NCBI RefSeq assembly: GCF_029889745.1
Contig: NZ_CP123639.1
Location: 534,501 to 598,500 of the forward strand
Length of the DNA: 64,000 bases
Reading direction: 5' to 3'
Source: Ligilactobacillus faecis
GTDB lineage: Bacteria > Bacillota > Bacilli > Lactobacillales > Lactobacillaceae
The notes below the pieces were generated by a model. That model did not search any database. It was not told the DNA's origin and was given only the letters and a program-made list of their open reading frames with translations. Positions within the stretch are counted from its first letter, which is position 1; every line of letters begins with the position of its first letter. Shown here piece by piece: positions 2,777 to 27,356 of the stretch. A program made the position numbers and the translations under genes.

Positions 2777-2861
2777 CAGAATGTAGACTAAGTCATCAGA
2801 GTATGTGCTCTGGTGACTTTTTTTTGTATAATTAAAGAAAACGGTTACGGAGGTGCTCATT

Positions 2862-3476
2862 ATGCTTCACAAAAGTGATCCCAATCTCAAACGCTGTGAA
2901 TATGCTCGTACTTCTCTAGATGATTTGGTCCCAAAAGATCATTTACTCCGTAAAATTGATCAAATTATTGATTTCTCTTTTATTTATGATCTTGTCGAAG
3001 ATTCCTATTGTAAAAATAATGGTCGTCCTAGTCTTGACCCTGTACTACTCATAAAGATTCCTTTGATCCAAAATCTATTTGGTATTCGTTCTATGCGTCA
3101 AACGATCAAAGAAATTCAAGTTAATGTCGCTTATCGATGGTTTCTAGGACTAGGTTTAAATGATCCTGTTCCTCATTTCTCTACCTACGGTAAAAATTAT
3201 AAAAGAAGATTTGCTGAAAGCCATGTAATAGAAGCTATTTTTGCTCATATTTTGAAACTCTGTTTAGAAAATGATCTTATCGACACAACTGATATCTTTA
3301 TTGATGGAACTCATTTGAAAGCTGCTGCTAACAGCCGTAAATATACTACTGAAGTTATTGAAACTAAGTCAAAATTTATGAGTGAAGATCTCGAAAAAGA
3401 AATAAATGTAGATAGAGCTAAACATCAAAAGAAACCCTTAAAAGAAGAAAAACCTAAAAAAAAACTAGACAAGTAA
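2862..3476 (+). CDS. Transposase, N-terminal part (frame 1 of a frameshifted transposase)
   Basis: This frame encodes the DUF772-type N-terminal region and the first catalytic Asp of a DDE transposase (FIDGTHLKAAAN). I choose the ATG at 2862 because GGAGG lies 8 bases upstream; an in-frame GTG at 2853 overlaps that site. The frame ends in a Lys-rich tail encoded by a run of nine A (3456-3464) and stops soon after. The rest of the catalytic domain lies in the -1 frame, so the active protein probably needs ribosomal or transcriptional slippage at the A9 run. Confidence 0.85.
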   Translation: MLHKSDPNLKRCEYARTSLDDLVPKDHLLRKIDQIIDFSFIYDLVEDSYCKNNGRPSLDPVLLIKIPLIQNLFGIRSMRQTIKEIQVNVAYRWFLGLGLNDPVPHFSTYGKNYKRRFAESHVIEAIFAHILKLCLENDLIDTTDIFIDGTHLKAAANSRKYTTEVIETKSKFMSEDLEKEINVDRAKHQKKPLKEEKPKKKLDK

Positions 3477-4249
3477 AAATATCTAAAACTGATCCTGATA
3501 GTGGATGGTTTCATAAGGGTGAACACAAACAGGTTTTTGCCTATAACGTTCAAGCTGCCTGTGATAAAAATGGGTGGCTCTTAGCTTATGTGGTCGGTGC
3601 GGGAAATATCCATGATACGCAACTTTTTCCTGAAATATTTGAAAAAGTACGGAAGTACGACCCACAATATATTATCGCTGATTCTGGCTATAAAACACCC
3701 ACGATCGCACACTTTTTACTATCTCAAGGCATAATTCCCATTCTTCCTTATAAACGCCCAAGGGGCAAAGTTGGTACGCTTAGACCCAAAGATTTTGTTT
3801 ATGATGAATATTATGATTGTTATTTATGTCCTGGCGATCAAATCTTAATGTACTCCACAACTAATCGAAGTGGTTATCGTGAATATAAAAGTGATCCTAC
3901 AATCTGTGAAAAATGTCCTTTACTGCACAAATGTACACAAAGTAAAAATCATCAAAGAGTTATCGCTCGTCATGTTTGGCAAGATAGTATGGAAAAATGT
4001 GAGGATATCAGGCATCAAACTGGCTCAAAATTAAAGTATGAAGCGCGAAAGGAGACGATCGAAAGAAATTTTGGTTCGGCAAAAGAATATCACAACTTGA
4101 GATACGCCCGAGAAGTAGGAATTGATAAAATTCTAGCTAAAGTCGGGTTGATATTTGCGTGCCTAAATCTAAAAAAATTGGTAAAAATACTGGGGAAAAA
4201 CCCTGTTATATTCGTATATTTCAAAGTATATAGTCATAAAAATACATAA
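3458..4249 (+). CDS. Transposase, C-terminal part (frame 2, read after -1 slippage)
   Basis: Reading in the -1 frame from the A9 run gives an open frame that continues the transposase. KTDPDSGWFHKGEHKQVFAY is followed by the second Asp in IIADSGYKTPT and the catalytic Glu region in ETIERNFGSAKEYHNLRYAR. A Cys-containing segment (CEKCPLLHKC) lies between them, as in many IS1182/IS5-like transposases. The first internal ATG (3590) would miss the conserved GWFHKGEHK block, so independent translation is unlikely to give a functional protein. The same arrangement is preserved in copy 2. Confidence 0.8.
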   Translation, partial: KKTRQVKISKTDPDSGWFHKGEHKQVFAYNVQAACDKNGWLLAYVVGAGNIHDTQLFPEIFEKVRKYDPQYIIADSGYKTPTIAHFLLSQGIIPILPYKRPRGKVGTLRPKDFVYDEYYDCYLCPGDQILMYSTTNRSGYREYKSDPTICEKCPLLHKCTQSKNHQRVIARHVWQDSMEKCEDIRHQTGSKLKYEARKETIERNFGSAKEYHNLRYAREVGIDKILAKVGLIFACLNLKKLVKILGKNPVIFVYFKVYSHKNT

Positions 4250-4294
4250 AAAAACAAACTCTATCCATTTTGAATAGAGTTTGTCTACGTTCTG

Positions 4295-4321
4295 AAACAG
4301 CGTCGTTACTGCACGCTGTTT
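4295..4321 (+). terminator. Right copy of the duplicated hflX terminator
   Basis: This is an exact 27-base repeat of 2750-2776, followed by additional T. It keeps a functional-looking hairpin plus T-run downstream of the IS. Confidence 0.88.
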
Positions 4322-13186: not shown

Positions 13187-14846
13187 ACCCAAAATAAGAG
13201 GCTGTGACATAAGTAGTCTCTATAAGAGAAAAGTATCTCAGAAATCGAAAATTTGATTTCTGAGATACTTTTTCTTTACGTATTTTGTTTATCTTGGTCA
13301 CTACTGTGACTAATTTGTTGATATTCATTGCCAAAACTACAATGCCCATTTCCTTTTCGACTCTTTCGCTCCCCCTAACTGAGAATCGGTTGAATCCCAA
13401 AGAAGCCTTCAATCTTCCAAAAACAGGTTCAACATCAATTTTGCGCCGTGCATAGATTGATCCAGTATTAGAAGATGAAAGTAAAGCTCGTTGTTGTGCT
13501 TTAAAATATTCCCAGGCATTATTGACCATGATCTTCCTTACGTGTCCACTTTTAGTTAAGGCTCGGGGATCTATCAAATGATCATCATCAAATTTTTCAG
13601 CAGTATATACTTTAAAATCTCTAGTAAATCCATACTTATCAGTTCTTTTAGAATAGTTTGAAAAATTGAATCTAACACCGTTAAGGTCTAAATAATAGTC
13701 ATCTTTTTCATTATAAGACCAATTCATGATTTTATGATCATCAGTTTTCCATTTGCGACTATTCTCTTTGAGCATTGTCCCATAAGGGATCAAAACGGTG
13801 CGATCACCGTAATTATCGTCACAAAAACGATAATTACTCTCAGAACCATACCCAGCATCAGCAACGATAGTTGAACCAAGTACGCCATTGTCATTCAAAT
13901 GGTCAATAAAAGTAGGAAGCGTTCTTGTATCAGTTGGATTAGCAAATAACTTATACCCGGTAATAAACTGGTTACTAGTAGCAATTTGAAGATTATAAGC
14001 AGGTTTTAGTTGTCCGTTTAACATTGGATCTTCTTTTACACGCATAAAAGTAGCATCATGGTCAGTTTTAGAGTAACTATTTCGTTCTCTAAGGATGTCT
14101 TTTTGTTTTTGGTGATTTTGCATTTTTTCTTTACGCGTTAATAGTTTTTTGTAGGTTGCCTTTAATTTTCGACGTTCTTGTTTCGCAGGGTTCGGCGATA
14201 CTTGTCTAGTTTCTTCGACTTTTTGATCTAAAGCAACTAGATAATCTTCAAACTTGGCAATTATTACATCTAATGCTTCCAAAGTCAGGTCAGATCCTTT
14301 GGGGATCTTTCCGATAACTTTAGCTTCGTGGAGCTCGCCTAAAAGTTCAACAACTTTTTGACGATTGAGCTCATCAAAACGAACGACATTTTTCTTCCAG
14401 ACAAAAGAATACTTATTAGCATCCGCAAGGATCTTCGTACCGTCAATGAAAGAAATGTCATCAATCAGATTATGTTTTTTTAGAAAAGCTGTCAATTTAG
14501 TTAAACTCTCTTGTGTTAAGGTAGCTAACTCATCAGAGATCCGAAAACGACAAATAGTTCGATAAGAAGGGACTTGATCAGCGATCAACCAACCAGCAGG
14601 CTTATTTTCGCGAGCAAATCTCTCAATTTTTCGACTACTAAAGATACCATAGCTATAAGCAAGTAAAGTGAGCTTTAGCATAGCAGCTAGATCATATTCA
14701 CGAGGGCGTCCAAATTGATAGTTATACTTGAGTTCTAAACTTTCAACAAGTTCATTGATGTAGAGAGCTGGATGATTTTTTTCAGGAATATATTCTAAAG
14801 AGATGTTCAAAATAGTCTGATTAATGTTATAATGACTGTGTATCAT
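13155..14846 (-). CDS. IS1182-family transposase
   Basis: This is a 563-residue DDE transposase. The catalytic segments are FIDGTKILADANKYSF, IVADAGYGSESNY and ARRKIDVEPVFGRLKASLGF. A Lys/Arg-rich coiled region (about residues 215-255) separates the first two. The start is ATG with AAAGGATAAC upstream. Oddly, there is no stop codon inside the element: the frame passes through the terminal repeat and ends at 13155 inside the permease gene on the opposite strand. About 20 C-terminal residues therefore come from the terminal repeat and host flank. The related transposase at 53939 stops inside its IS, right after the equivalent hairpin. Confidence 0.9.
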   Translation of the reverse strand: MIHSHYNINQTILNISLEYIPEKNHPALYINELVESLELKYNYQFGRPREYDLAAMLKLTLLAYSYGIFSSRKIERFARENKPAGWLIADQVPSYRTICRFRISDELATLTQESLTKLTAFLKKHNLIDDISFIDGTKILADANKYSFVWKKNVVRFDELNRQKVVELLGELHEAKVIGKIPKGSDLTLEALDVIIAKFEDYLVALDQKVEETRQVSPNPAKQERRKLKATYKKLLTRKEKMQNHQKQKDILRERNSYSKTDHDATFMRVKEDPMLNGQLKPAYNLQIATSNQFITGYKLFANPTDTRTLPTFIDHLNDNGVLGSTIVADAGYGSESNYRFCDDNYGDRTVLIPYGTMLKENSRKWKTDDHKIMNWSYNEKDDYYLDLNGVRFNFSNYSKRTDKYGFTRDFKVYTAEKFDDDHLIDPRALTKSGHVRKIMVNNAWEYFKAQQRALLSSSNTGSIYARRKIDVEPVFGRLKASLGFNRFSVRGSERVEKEMGIVVLAMNINKLVTVVTKINKIRKEKVSQKSNFRFLRYFSLIETTYVTASYFGFIFVRSIYYV

Positions 14847-14989
14847 TTTATGTTATCCTTTCGAGGGTAATTGTGAGGTAGCCGGGCGTGGCTACCTTTT
14901 TTCTTTGATTATAATTCAAAAGCTGGATATATGAAACACGAAGGTTTCCATACATCCAGCTTTATTTTGTAGACTTATGTCACAGCCTC
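13198..14989. mobile_element. IS1182-type insertion sequence (about 1.8 kb)
   Basis: Terminal inverted repeats GAGGCTGTGACATAAGT and ACTTATGTCACAGCCTC are perfect. The symmetry continues outward for seven more bases (AAAATAA / TTATTTT), so 13191-13214 and 14973-14996 are a perfect 24-base inverted pair. The outer bases are probably the arms of the palindromic target (likely the permease terminator) rather than part of the IS. Internal hairpins occur near both ends, at 13227-13275 and 14877-14897. No direct repeat is apparent. A deleted relative lies at 23954-24183. Confidence 0.85.
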
Positions 14990-15003
14990 TTATTTTATTA
15001 GTT

Positions 15004-23953: not shown

Positions 23954-24183
23954 AAAGAGGGCAGGCATACTACCTTGCAACAAGTTCCTTGCTGTAAAAT
24001 TTTTAAAGAGATGTGCAAAGTCGGCTACTCAACGTTATAATTTTATGTTATCCTTTCGAGGGTCATCGTAAGGTAGCCGAGCGTGGCTACCTTTTTTCTT
24101 TGATCATAATTCAAAAGCTGGATATATGAAACACGAAGGTCTTCATATATCCAGCTTTATTTTATAGACTTATGTCACAGCCT
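23954..24183. mobile_element. Deleted remnant of the IS1182-type element
   Basis: Bases from about 24035 to 24180 closely match the right end of the intact element (14850-14987), including GGTAGCC..GGCTACC, the GCTGGATATATG hairpin and the terminal ACTTATGTCACAGCC. The transposase gene is gone and the left part is barely recognisable. The outer flanks AATAAAAAG and CTTTTTATT are again complementary, suggesting that the original insertion was into a terminator palindrome. Confidence 0.75.
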
Positions 24184-24185
24184 TT

Positions 24186-24902
24186 TTATTTTTTTCGGTC
24201 TAAGATCGTATAGGCATGTTCGCCATTATACGGATGGCGACTAAAAGAATATTCAAAGGGGCGTCCGTCTTGTAAATAAACGACTTGTTCAACTTGTAAG
24301 ATCGGATCATGTTCGGCTGATCCGAGATATTTGATATCGTTAGCAGTCGCTTTTTCTGCTGTGATCTTGCGAAAAGCACTTCCGATCTGAAGATGAAGCG
24401 CTTCATTCAAATACGCATAGATCGAATTCAATAGTTCATGCTCACTTAACCCTGGGATCAGCTCGATCGGCATAAAAGTATGCTCGAGCGCATATGGTTT
24501 ATCATCGACAAGTCGCAAACGTAAGATCTCATAAACTGGTTCATTTTTTTGCAATTCGAGCCGTTCTCTGACTTCTTCTGAAGGAAATTTTACATCAAAA
24601 ACGATCGGTCGGCTCACAACTTTTCGATCGCCTAGTTGTTGACTAAGTCCTCCATACTCATCAACGGGGAGAGCATCACGCTGCGCTAAAGCATTTTTCC
24701 GTACAAAAGTTCCGGCCCCCCGTTGCGCATAAATATAACCTTCGATCGCCAAAATATCTAATGCTTTTTTTACAGTCATGCGACTTGTTTTAAATTCTTT
24801 AGCTAAAGCATTTTGATCTGGGATCAAACTTCCAGCCGGATAATCCCCAACTAAGATCCGATGCTTAACAGTTTCTAAGATCTGTTTATACTTTGGTTCC
24901 AT
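24186..24902 (-). CDS. GntR-family regulator with UTRA effector domain
   Basis: This is a 238-residue regulator. The winged helix occupies residues 1-68, with the GntR signature LAKEFKTSRMTVKKALDILAIEGYIYAQRGAGTFV split over its recognition helix. A UTRA ligand domain follows (about 90-235). HutC/UTRA members sense sugar phosphates, glucosamine-6-phosphate or similar metabolites. No metabolic gene is co-transcribed and the gene downstream on this strand is the IS remnant, so the regulon cannot be deduced. An inverted repeat upstream could be its own operator. Confidence 0.88.
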   Translation of the reverse strand: MEPKYKQILETVKHRILVGDYPAGSLIPDQNALAKEFKTSRMTVKKALDILAIEGYIYAQRGAGTFVRKNALAQRDALPVDEYGGLSQQLGDRKVVSRPIVFDVKFPSEEVRERLELQKNEPVYEILRLRLVDDKPYALEHTFMPIELIPGLSEHELLNSIYAYLNEALHLQIGSAFRKITAEKATANDIKYLGSAEHDPILQVEQVVYLQDGRPFEYSFSRHPYNGEHAYTILDRKK

Positions 24903-24974: not shown

Positions 24975-24992
24975 GGTACTTTTTATAAAGAA

Positions 24993-25018
24993 AAGGAGTT
25001 GGCAAACCAACTCCTTCC
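24993..25018 (-). terminator. crcB-operon terminator, left copy of a 26-bp IS target duplication
   Basis: AAGGAGTTGG and CCAACTCCTT form a perfect 10-bp stem around CAAA. The identical 26 bases recur at 26536-26561 on the other side of IS copy 2. Confidence 0.9.
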
Positions 25019-25062
25019 AGAACGTAGACAAACTCTATTCAAATCGGATAGAGTTTGTTTTT

Positions 25063-25854
25063 TTATGTATTTTTATAACTATATACTTTGAAATATACGA
25101 ATATAACAGGGTTTTTCCCCAGTATTTTTACCAATTTTTTTAGATTTAGGCACGCAAATATCAACCCAACTTTAGCTAGAATTTTATCAATTCCTACTTC
25201 TCGGGCGTATCTCAAGTTGTGATATTCTTTTGCCGAACCAAAATTTCTTTCGATCGTCTCCTTTCGCGCTTCATACTTTAATTTTGAGCCAGTTTGATGC
25301 CTGATATCCTCACATTTTTCCATACTATCTTGCCAAACATGACGAGCGATAACTCTTTGATGATTTTTACTTTGTGTACATTTGTGCAGTAAAGGACATT
25401 TTTCACAGATTGTAGGATCACTTTTATATTCACGATAACCACTTCGATTAGTTGTGGAGTACATTAAGATTTGATCGCCAGGACATAAATAACAATCATA
25501 ATATTCATCATAAACAAAATCTTTGGGTCTAAGCGTACCAACTTTGCCCCTTGGGCGTTTATAAGGAAGAATGGGAATTATGCCTTGAGATAGTAAAAAG
25601 TGTGCGATCGTGGGTGTTTTATAGCCAGAATCAGCGATAATATATTGTGGGTCGTACTTCCGTACTTTTTCAAATATTTCAGGAAAAAGTTGCGTATCAT
25701 GGATATTTCCCGCACCGACCACATAAGCTAAGAGCCACCCATTTTTATCACAGGCAGCTTGAACGTTATAGGCAAAAACCTGTTTGTGTTCACCCTTATG
25801 AAACCATCCACTATCAGGATCAGTTTTAGATATTTTTACTTGTCTAGTTTTTTT
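25063..25854 (-). CDS. Transposase, C-terminal part (IS copy 2, -1 frame)
   Basis: Continuation of the transposase in the -1 frame after the A9 run, with the second Asp (IIADSGYKTPT) and the Glu region (ETIERNFGSAKEYHNLRYAR). It differs from copy 1 by His to Tyr near the C-terminus. Confidence 0.8.
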   Translation of the reverse strand, partial: KKTRQVKISKTDPDSGWFHKGEHKQVFAYNVQAACDKNGWLLAYVVGAGNIHDTQLFPEIFEKVRKYDPQYIIADSGYKTPTIAHFLLSQGIIPILPYKRPRGKVGTLRPKDFVYDEYYDCYLCPGDQILMYSTTNRSGYREYKSDPTICEKCPLLHKCTQSKNHQRVIARHVWQDSMEKCEDIRHQTGSKLKYEARKETIERNFGSAKEYHNLRYAREVGIDKILAKVGLIFACLNLKKLVKILGKNPVIFVYFKVYSYKNT

Positions 25855-26450
25855 TTAGGTTTTTCTTCTTTTAAGGGTTTCTTTTGATGTTTAGCTCTAT
25901 CTACATTTATTTCTTTTTCGAGATCTTCACTCATAAATTTTGACTTAGTTTCAATAACTTCAGTAGTATATTTACGGCTGTTAGCAGCAGCTTTCAAATG
26001 AGTTCCATCAATAAAGATATCAGTTGTGTCGATAAGATCATTTTCTAAACAGAGTTTCAAAATATGAGCAAAAATAGCTTCTATTACATGGCTTTCAGCA
26101 AATCTTCTTTTATAATTTTTACCGTAGGTAGAGAAATGAGGAACAGGATCATTTAAACCTAGTCCTAGAAACCATCGATAAGCGACATTAACTTGAATTT
26201 CTTTGATCGTTTGACGCATAGAACGAATACCAAATAGATTTTGGATCAAAGGAATCTTTATGAGTAGTACAGGGTCAAGACTAGGACGACCATTATTTTT
26301 ACAATAGGAATCTTCGACAAGATCATAAATAAAAGAGAAATCAATAATTTGATCAATTTTACGGAGTAAATGATCTTTTGGGACCAAATCATCTAGAGAA
26401 GTACGAGCATATTCACAGCGTTTGAGATTGGGATCACTTTTGTGAAGCAT
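25836..26450 (-). CDS. Transposase, N-terminal part (IS copy 2)
   Basis: Same protein as the N-terminal part in copy 1, starting at the ATG eight bases after GGAGG. The translation is identical to copy 1 and it ends just after the A9 run (T9 on the plus strand, 25848-25856). Confidence 0.85.
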   Translation of the reverse strand: MLHKSDPNLKRCEYARTSLDDLVPKDHLLRKIDQIIDFSFIYDLVEDSYCKNNGRPSLDPVLLIKIPLIQNLFGIRSMRQTIKEIQVNVAYRWFLGLGLNDPVPHFSTYGKNYKRRFAESHVIEAIFAHILKLCLENDLIDTTDIFIDGTHLKAAANSRKYTTEVIETKSKFMSEDLEKEINVDRAKHQKKPLKEEKPKKKLDK

Positions 26451-26535
26451 AATGAGCACCTCCGTAACCGTTTTCTTTAATTATACAAAAAAAAGTCACC
26501 AGAGCACATACTCTGATGACTTAGTCTACATTCTG

Positions 26536-26561
26536 AAAGGAGTTGGCAAACCAACTCCTTC
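26536..26561 (-). terminator. crcB-operon terminator, right copy of the duplication
   Basis: This is the perfect 10-bp stem AAGGAGTTGG/CCAACTCCTT just after the second crcB stop codon (26565). It is the copy that still serves the urease/crcB transcript. Confidence 0.85.
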
Positions 26562-26564
26562 TTC

Positions 26565-26960
26565 TTATTTAGCAAAATCACTTAAATCAGTACGTAAAAC
26601 GACCTTTAACCCTAAGTAGACCGCTAATAGACCTAAAAGCATATTAGCTGCGATATAGCCTAACCCGACTAAAATATGTGTGGCATCAAATAGATCAACG
26701 ATCCCATCTGCAAACGATGAAAAAGTCGTCAACCCACCACAAAAGCCGGTTGAGGTCAATTTACCAAATTCAGCCGATAAATTTTTCTTGAATAGACCAG
26801 CACTGATCAAGCCGATCAAAAAACAACCACAAACATTAACGACTAAGATCGCAAATGCTTCTGAAACACTAGGACCGATCAAAGTTTCACAGACATACCG
26901 CAAAGCACCCCCAAAGAAACAACCGATCCCAACTAACCATAATTCTGTCGATTTTTTCAT
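26565..26960 (-). CDS. crcB: Fluoride channel CrcB/Fluc, second subunit
   Basis: This is a 131-residue, four-helix membrane protein. Conserved Fluc features are GCFFGGALRYVCE near the N-terminus, VNVCGCFLIGLI in helix 2 and the helix 3 break STGFCGGLTTFSSF, which carries the Phe-box and the central Na+ site. Fluc channels work as antiparallel dimers and let fluoride leave the cell. Many Gram-positive bacteria encode two different subunits side by side, as here, suggesting a heterodimer. The start has AGGGG upstream. It follows the first crcB by 18 bases. Confidence 0.92.
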   Translation of the reverse strand: MKKSTELWLVGIGCFFGGALRYVCETLIGPSVSEAFAILVVNVCGCFLIGLISAGLFKKNLSAEFGKLTSTGFCGGLTTFSSFADGIVDLFDATHILVGLGYIAANMLLGLLAVYLGLKVVLRTDLSDFAK

Positions 26961-26978
26961 TGCAAGTTCCCCTCAACT

Positions 26979-27356
26979 TTAAAATAGCCGTCCTAAGCCT
27001 AGGCCTAAGTAGACACAAACGATACATAAGACTACACTACCGCACCAGTAAAGTGCCCCGTGCGCAAACTTTTGTTGTTTGAAATATTTAAACGTCTCAA
27101 GTGAAAAAGTTGAGAAAGTCGTTAAACCGCCACAAAAACCACCGGCTAGTAAAGTGTTTCCAAGTTGAGATAAAGATCCTTGGGCAACTAAAGCGGCAAA
27201 GATCCCGATCAAAAACGAGCCGACTAAATTAGCAGCTAAAGTTCCATACGGAAAAGTAGCTGTTTTTTTGTTGAACCAATCTGAAAACAAGCTTCGTAAG
27301 CAGCCGCCAAAGAAAGCGCCTAGACCAGCAGCCCCAAAGCCAAGCCAAAATGTCAT
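26979..27356 (-). CDS. crcB: Fluoride channel CrcB/Fluc, first subunit
   Basis: This is a 125-residue, four-helix protein with the same signatures: GLGAFFGGCLRSLF, NLVGSFLIGIFA and AGGFCGGLTTFSTF. It begins 23 bases after the ureD stop codon, with no terminator between them, so it is probably the tenth gene of the amt-urease transcript. Fluoride is a known inhibitor of nickel ureases, which makes a functional link plausible. No fluoride riboswitch is visible in front of it. Confidence 0.92.
   Translation of the reverse strand: MTFWLGFGAAGLGAFFGGCLRSLFSDWFNKKTATFPYGTLAANLVGSFLIGIFAALVAQGSLSQLGNTLLAGGFCGGLTTFSTFSLETFKYFKQQKFAHGALYWCGSVVLCIVCVYLGLGLGRLF

Follow-up and report, generated by a model that had tools for sequence, protein, structure and literature searches.

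Insertion sequences (IS) that recognise hairpins have already been described in the IS1182 family. Hairpin targeting by IS1272 and TnSha1 of Staphylococcus was published in 2016-2017 (PMC4923244, PMC5678879). The hairpins concerned are mostly terminators of unrelated sequence, usually lie just downstream of genes and are entered in both orientations, and in all of these respects the element described here is similar. The two papers credit palindrome targeting by some IS1182 members to Siguier 2015, a statement that, as cited in PMC5678879, came without detailed data. IS1272 removes the hairpin, wholly or in part, and makes no duplication, whereas the present element duplicates the whole hairpin in all 17 of its complete copies, and so does not carry out the stem-loop replacing transposition of the IS1272 type. 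Another parallel is pathway b in Fig. 13 of Wan et al. (2017), a hypothetical branch of their cruciform model in which attack at the 5' feet would duplicate the whole stem-loop; beside it stands a 3'-foot branch that would explain the hairpin deletions of IS1272 (PMC5678879). The element has the whole stem-loop on both sides, as in pathway b, but pathway b is theoretical and was drawn without an example, whereas here there are about 60 natural cases.

IS200/IS605 and the elements that insert into REP palindromes (e.g. ISPpu9) likewise have a palindrome or hairpin, either in the target or at their own ends. These use different types of transposase, and REP targets share sequence. IS200/IS605 elements have a HUH transposase, no terminal inverted repeats and no target duplication, whereas the present element has a DDE transposase, inverted repeats and long duplications.

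The window, by which we mean the whole 64-kb stretch of DNA that was analysed, carries the same IS twice, in opposite orientations, at 2777-4294 (plus strand) and 25018-26535 (minus strand). Both are flanked by a hairpin repeat, as had been recognised in an earlier, sequence-only reading of this DNA; the repeats are 27 bp and 26 bp long, respectively. The features are as follows.

2750-2776, unstranded: target-site duplication of IS copy 1, left, 27-bp hairpin AAACAGCGTCGTTACTGCACGCTGTTT
2777-4294, plus strand: IS copy 1
4295-4321, unstranded: target-site duplication of IS copy 1, right copy
24992-25017, unstranded: target-site duplication of IS copy 2, left copy AAAGGAGTTGGCAAACCAACTCCTTC, complete hairpin
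25018-26535, minus strand: IS copy 2, 1518 bp, IS1182 family
25018-25029, unstranded: 12-bp terminal repeat CAGAACGTAGAC, right end of IS copy 2
25030-25056, unstranded: subterminal hairpin at the right end of IS copy 2, AAACTCTATTC...GATAGAGTTT, terminator-like
25063-25722, minus strand: transposase ORF2, DDE_Tnp_1_6; the listed start is GTG, and the open frame starts further upstream
25836-26459, minus strand: transposase ORF1, DUF772; joined to ORF2 via a -1 shift at an A9 run
26493-26522, unstranded: subterminal hairpin at the left end of IS copy 2, AAGTCATCAGAG...CTCTGGTGACTT, terminator-like
26524-26535, unstranded: 12-bp terminal repeat, left end of IS copy 2, minus-strand CAGAATGTAGAC
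26536-26561, unstranded: target-site duplication of IS copy 2, right copy, 3 bp past the crcB stop codon

Read on the plus strand, copy 2 runs from CAGAACGTAGAC to GTCTACATTCTG. The 26-bp repeat AAAGGAGTTGGCAAACCAACTCCTTC is identical at its two positions, 24992-25017 and 26536-26561; the earlier reading had correctly seen a duplicated 26-base hairpin here, with its start placed one base off. The repeat folds into a 10-bp stem with a CAAA loop and has a DNA minimum free energy of -10.5 kcal/mol (z = -6.1), and none of 200 shuffles folds equally well. AAACAGCGTCGTTACTGCACGCTGTTT, like AAAGGAGTTGGCAAACCAACTCCTTC, folds into a hairpin. Empty sites are found in related genomes. The copy 1 locus has the hairpin without the IS in two relatives, and the crcB-hairpin-gntR junction is syntenic in a sister species, where the IS is absent and the hairpin has a different sequence. 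In the window, the hairpin repeated around copy 2 closes the urease/crcB operon, and two adjoining crcB-like genes of the fluoride exporter type (26565-27356) come last in a cluster of urease accessory genes.

The window contains other repeats as well. Between 44747 and 48493 a 129-bp unit (43 codons) recurs many times in imperfect form, much as in repeat proteins of the cell-wall or glucan-binding kind, and a 159-bp repeat occurs twice, at 14841-14999 and 24036-24194, the copies being 91% identical and 9.2 kb apart.

The element belongs to the IS1182 family. Both halves of the transposase match NF033551, with 197.7 and 189.8 bits over positions 8-216 and 288-487 of the 488-position profile; since the ORF is split, neither half reaches 270, the cut-off for a full-length match. 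The Pfam domains are DUF772 and DDE_Tnp_1_6. The length of 1518 bp lies within the roughly 1.5-1.9 kb of the family, CAGAAYGTAGAC forms terminal inverted repeats at both ends, and all 17 targets are hairpins, in line with the palindrome targeting known for some members. The two ORFs are joined by a -1 shift at CCT-A9-C (in the 25836 region of copy 2 and at 3460-3470 in copy 1). Most relatives have a single ORF, and the A9 run is kept in 17/17 copies across five haplotypes, which suggests that programmed frameshifting or slippage may join the two halves.

The assembly contains 17 complete copies, each flanked by a perfect, 21-34 bp direct repeat which makes up a complete hairpin, and no two of the 17 repeats have the same sequence. 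Among the five IS haplotypes, several are represented by identical copies at different sites, and have therefore moved recently. A lone 45-bp remnant of the left IS end, including its hairpin region, lies elsewhere in the genome (L018, G000:C1:497677-497721). A near-match search for plasmids carrying the IS found none.

A scan of 84,980 species genomes yielded 80 related loci, mainly from Bacillota, and a first batch of plasmids yielded ten more. In 45 of these 90 loci, an automatic end caller found terminal repeats like CAGACTGTAGAC together with a direct repeat that is a hairpin; a few further relatives of this kind were missed by the caller but are visible nonetheless. The 45 relatives have mostly 38-63% amino-acid identity and duplicated hairpins of about 19-40 bp; they too are mostly from Bacillota, with two plasmid elements of Providencia and Rhizobium. 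Where both IS ends are intact but there is no duplication, the two flanks are often complete but different hairpins (L040, L042, L052, L093 and L119), as expected if IS copies had recombined with each other. At L060 there is just an 8-bp, barely foldable repeat, AGTTTACT. A 12-bp repeat called at L108 was set aside, its ends probably being miscalled.

These repeats are not hairpins by chance. For each of the 17, no more than 8 of 2000 dinucleotide shuffles reached the same self-complementarity, and palindromes whose stem measures 8 or more are found only 1.6 times per kb in the 64-kb window, the sole source of the background rate; 68 of these 98 lie inside ORFs. Targets that cannot fold would have counted against a structural reading: there are 0/17 in the genome, and the relatives with a callable duplication of at least 10 bp are self-complementary in 45/45 cases.

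The repeat and the palindrome also coincide in position. For the 17 genome copies and 45 relatives taken together, the best palindrome and the duplication have exactly the same centre in 57/62 cases; the other five comprise two self-complementary duplications beside a stronger neighbouring palindrome and three that are off by no more than 1.5 bp. In reconstructed empty sites of the genome itself the agreement is 16/17, and at the remaining copy (L001), where a neighbouring palindrome scored higher, nine outer positions of the repeat itself still pair. In 62/62 cases the arms of the palindrome are complementary. The stagger with which DDE transposases cut is normally almost constant. A constant stagger in duplex DNA would not be expected to give what is seen here, namely duplications that differ about two-fold in length but always keep their dyad symmetry.

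On the basis of these observations, we consider it likely that an active IS1182-family element picks extrudable palindromes, mostly intrinsic terminators, by their shape, and that attack at the 5' feet of a cruciform duplicates the whole palindrome. The palindrome would be extruded as a cruciform when attacked, and its two 5' feet would then adjoin at the four-way junction whatever the length of the arms. The IS ends would be joined at these two feet, and the two single-stranded hairpins left behind would be unfolded and filled in by the host, giving a complete palindrome on each side. We infer both the extrusion at the time of attack and the role of junction geometry in setting the spacing of the cuts; the substrate itself could be a cruciform, a single-strand hairpin or a structure exposed by transcription.

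The last of these deserves attention in view of where the insertions fall. In the genome, 14/17 targets are within 10 bp of a stop codon, an A- or T-tract is present at 17/17, and both tracts are present at 14/17, so that the targets look like intrinsic, often bidirectional, terminators. Hairpins A-E of IS1272 were confirmed as terminators by RNA-seq (PMC4923244). It could thus be that the substrate is a working terminator (its hairpin, or a paused RNA polymerase) or a single-strand hairpin at the replication fork. An orientation bias was looked for with respect to both processes, and none was seen: among insertions whose two neighbouring genes share one direction, 16 are co-directional and 10 opposed, and about 9/17 genome copies are co-directional with the fork, a rough count based on dnaA with the terminus assumed to lie opposite. 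A symmetric reaction might mask such a bias, but 6/45 hairpins of the relatives lack any A/T tract, and a hairpin on one strand alone does not place the second cut. We therefore regard this explanation as rather improbable, although a cue specific to terminators, rather than purely to hairpins, may contribute to target choice.

The earlier reading had also held that the targets share no sequence and that recognition is structural. The first part is nearly right: the 17 targets have only three foot bases in common, mostly AAA/AAG...CTT/TTT. Over all targets, position 1 of the foot is A in about 90%, positions 2-3 are purines, giving a weak motif AAR...YTT, and base 4 is never A in the genome's own element. 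A search for a shared motif returned this short foot preference alone, which is insufficient to specify sites, and structural recognition with a weak foot motif is strongly supported. Targeting of a fixed motif was rejected, the preference being too short and the arms always complementary. The symmetry of the motif could also be read in terms of duplex DNA, with two transposase subunits binding symmetric AAR half-sites and cutting wherever two such feet face each other. This we think still less probable, since the feet lie 19-40 bp apart at variable spacing and helical phase and yet the arms are complementary in every case, which the foot motif by itself does not need.

The foot motif is thus a preference of register, unable to select sites. 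The cut is not made where the longest possible palindrome begins: some A-T pairs from the terminator tract are often left outside the duplication, and the cut lies a few bases below the first non-A base of the tract. Given the foot preference, the cut is therefore at a preferred place in the A-tract. Since A-T pairs are left outside, the cruciform model has to assume either a partly extruded arm or a preference for the foot sequence.

A last explanation, that insertion is random and only copies in terminators survive selection, can be rejected as highly implausible: intergenic terminators are indeed harmless sites in a genome with a coding density of about 86%, but intergenic space is mostly non-palindromic and 0/17 insertions fall in that non-palindromic part, and selection can neither equate the duplication with the palindrome nor centre it on the dyad.

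To return to attack on an extruded cruciform, short palindromes, of 8-10 bp, are inefficiently extruded in vitro, which counts against it, as does the barely foldable 8-bp repeat at L060. Duplication of the exact whole hairpin is what 5'-foot attack predicts, and is therefore counted in its favour (PMC5678879).

The ends of the IS carry hairpins of their own. In nearly all distinct elements a hairpin lies directly inside the 12-bp terminal repeat at both ends. These subterminal hairpins usually begin AAAC or AAAG, and their position is kept across relatives while the stem sequences are unrelated. They may bind transposase, insulate the gene, or do both. One sequence, GCCTCCCTCTTTGAGGGAGGTG, is the target duplication in L053 and also the subterminal hairpin at the left IS end of L100, a hint that an IS end may come to incorporate a target hairpin. 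Our guess would be that the target hairpin is read by the same transposase module that reads the element's own subterminal hairpins. More tentatively, a large, mainly Bacillota clade of IS1182 might act on four-way junctions, with the target hairpin rather than the enzyme setting the duplication size and the same recognition of hairpin feet acting on the element's own subterminal hairpins; on balance we would not yet bet on this wider proposal.

More distant elements of the family behave differently. Those from Pseudomonas, Paraburkholderia, Mesorhizobium, Hymenobacter and Paracoccus plasmids (a second plasmid batch and L124) resemble the present element in their annotation as IS1182 or unnamed transposase, their length of 1.5-1.7 kb and their terminal repeats, but they have 4-bp duplications, and their amino-acid identity is about 25-29%. 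On a quick tree of the DDE half, which has some long branches and does not include IS1272, a single change separates hairpin duplication from 4-bp duplication. A Staphylococcus epidermidis element (L123) was considered as a reference for IS1272 and ruled out, its near relatives being annotated ISSep1; its ends were looked for and none located. The Pseudomonas plasmid element L124 is inserted in the 4-base GGTA loop of a strong hairpin, and only the loop is duplicated. Pathway c of Wan et al., with duplication confined to the loop, was weighed as an account of the whole 4-bp clade. L124 fits it exactly and L130 too sits in the loop of a hairpin, but no clear hairpin surrounds L126 or L129, and we do not claim it.

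Hairpin targeting in the IS1182 family was thus already known, while duplication of the whole hairpin by natural elements appears to be new. A search of the literature, with ISfinder and TnPedia outside its scope, found no paper documenting it. The length of the duplication follows the secondary structure of the target, so that every insertion preserves a record of precisely which hairpin was cut. This also offers a way to insert without breaking genes, a terminator being kept on both sides. The formation and use of cruciforms in living cells is a long-standing question, which an active element with 17 copies makes directly testable, and a comparison with IS1272 (deletion) and with the 4-bp relatives would reveal what decides the outcome within one family.
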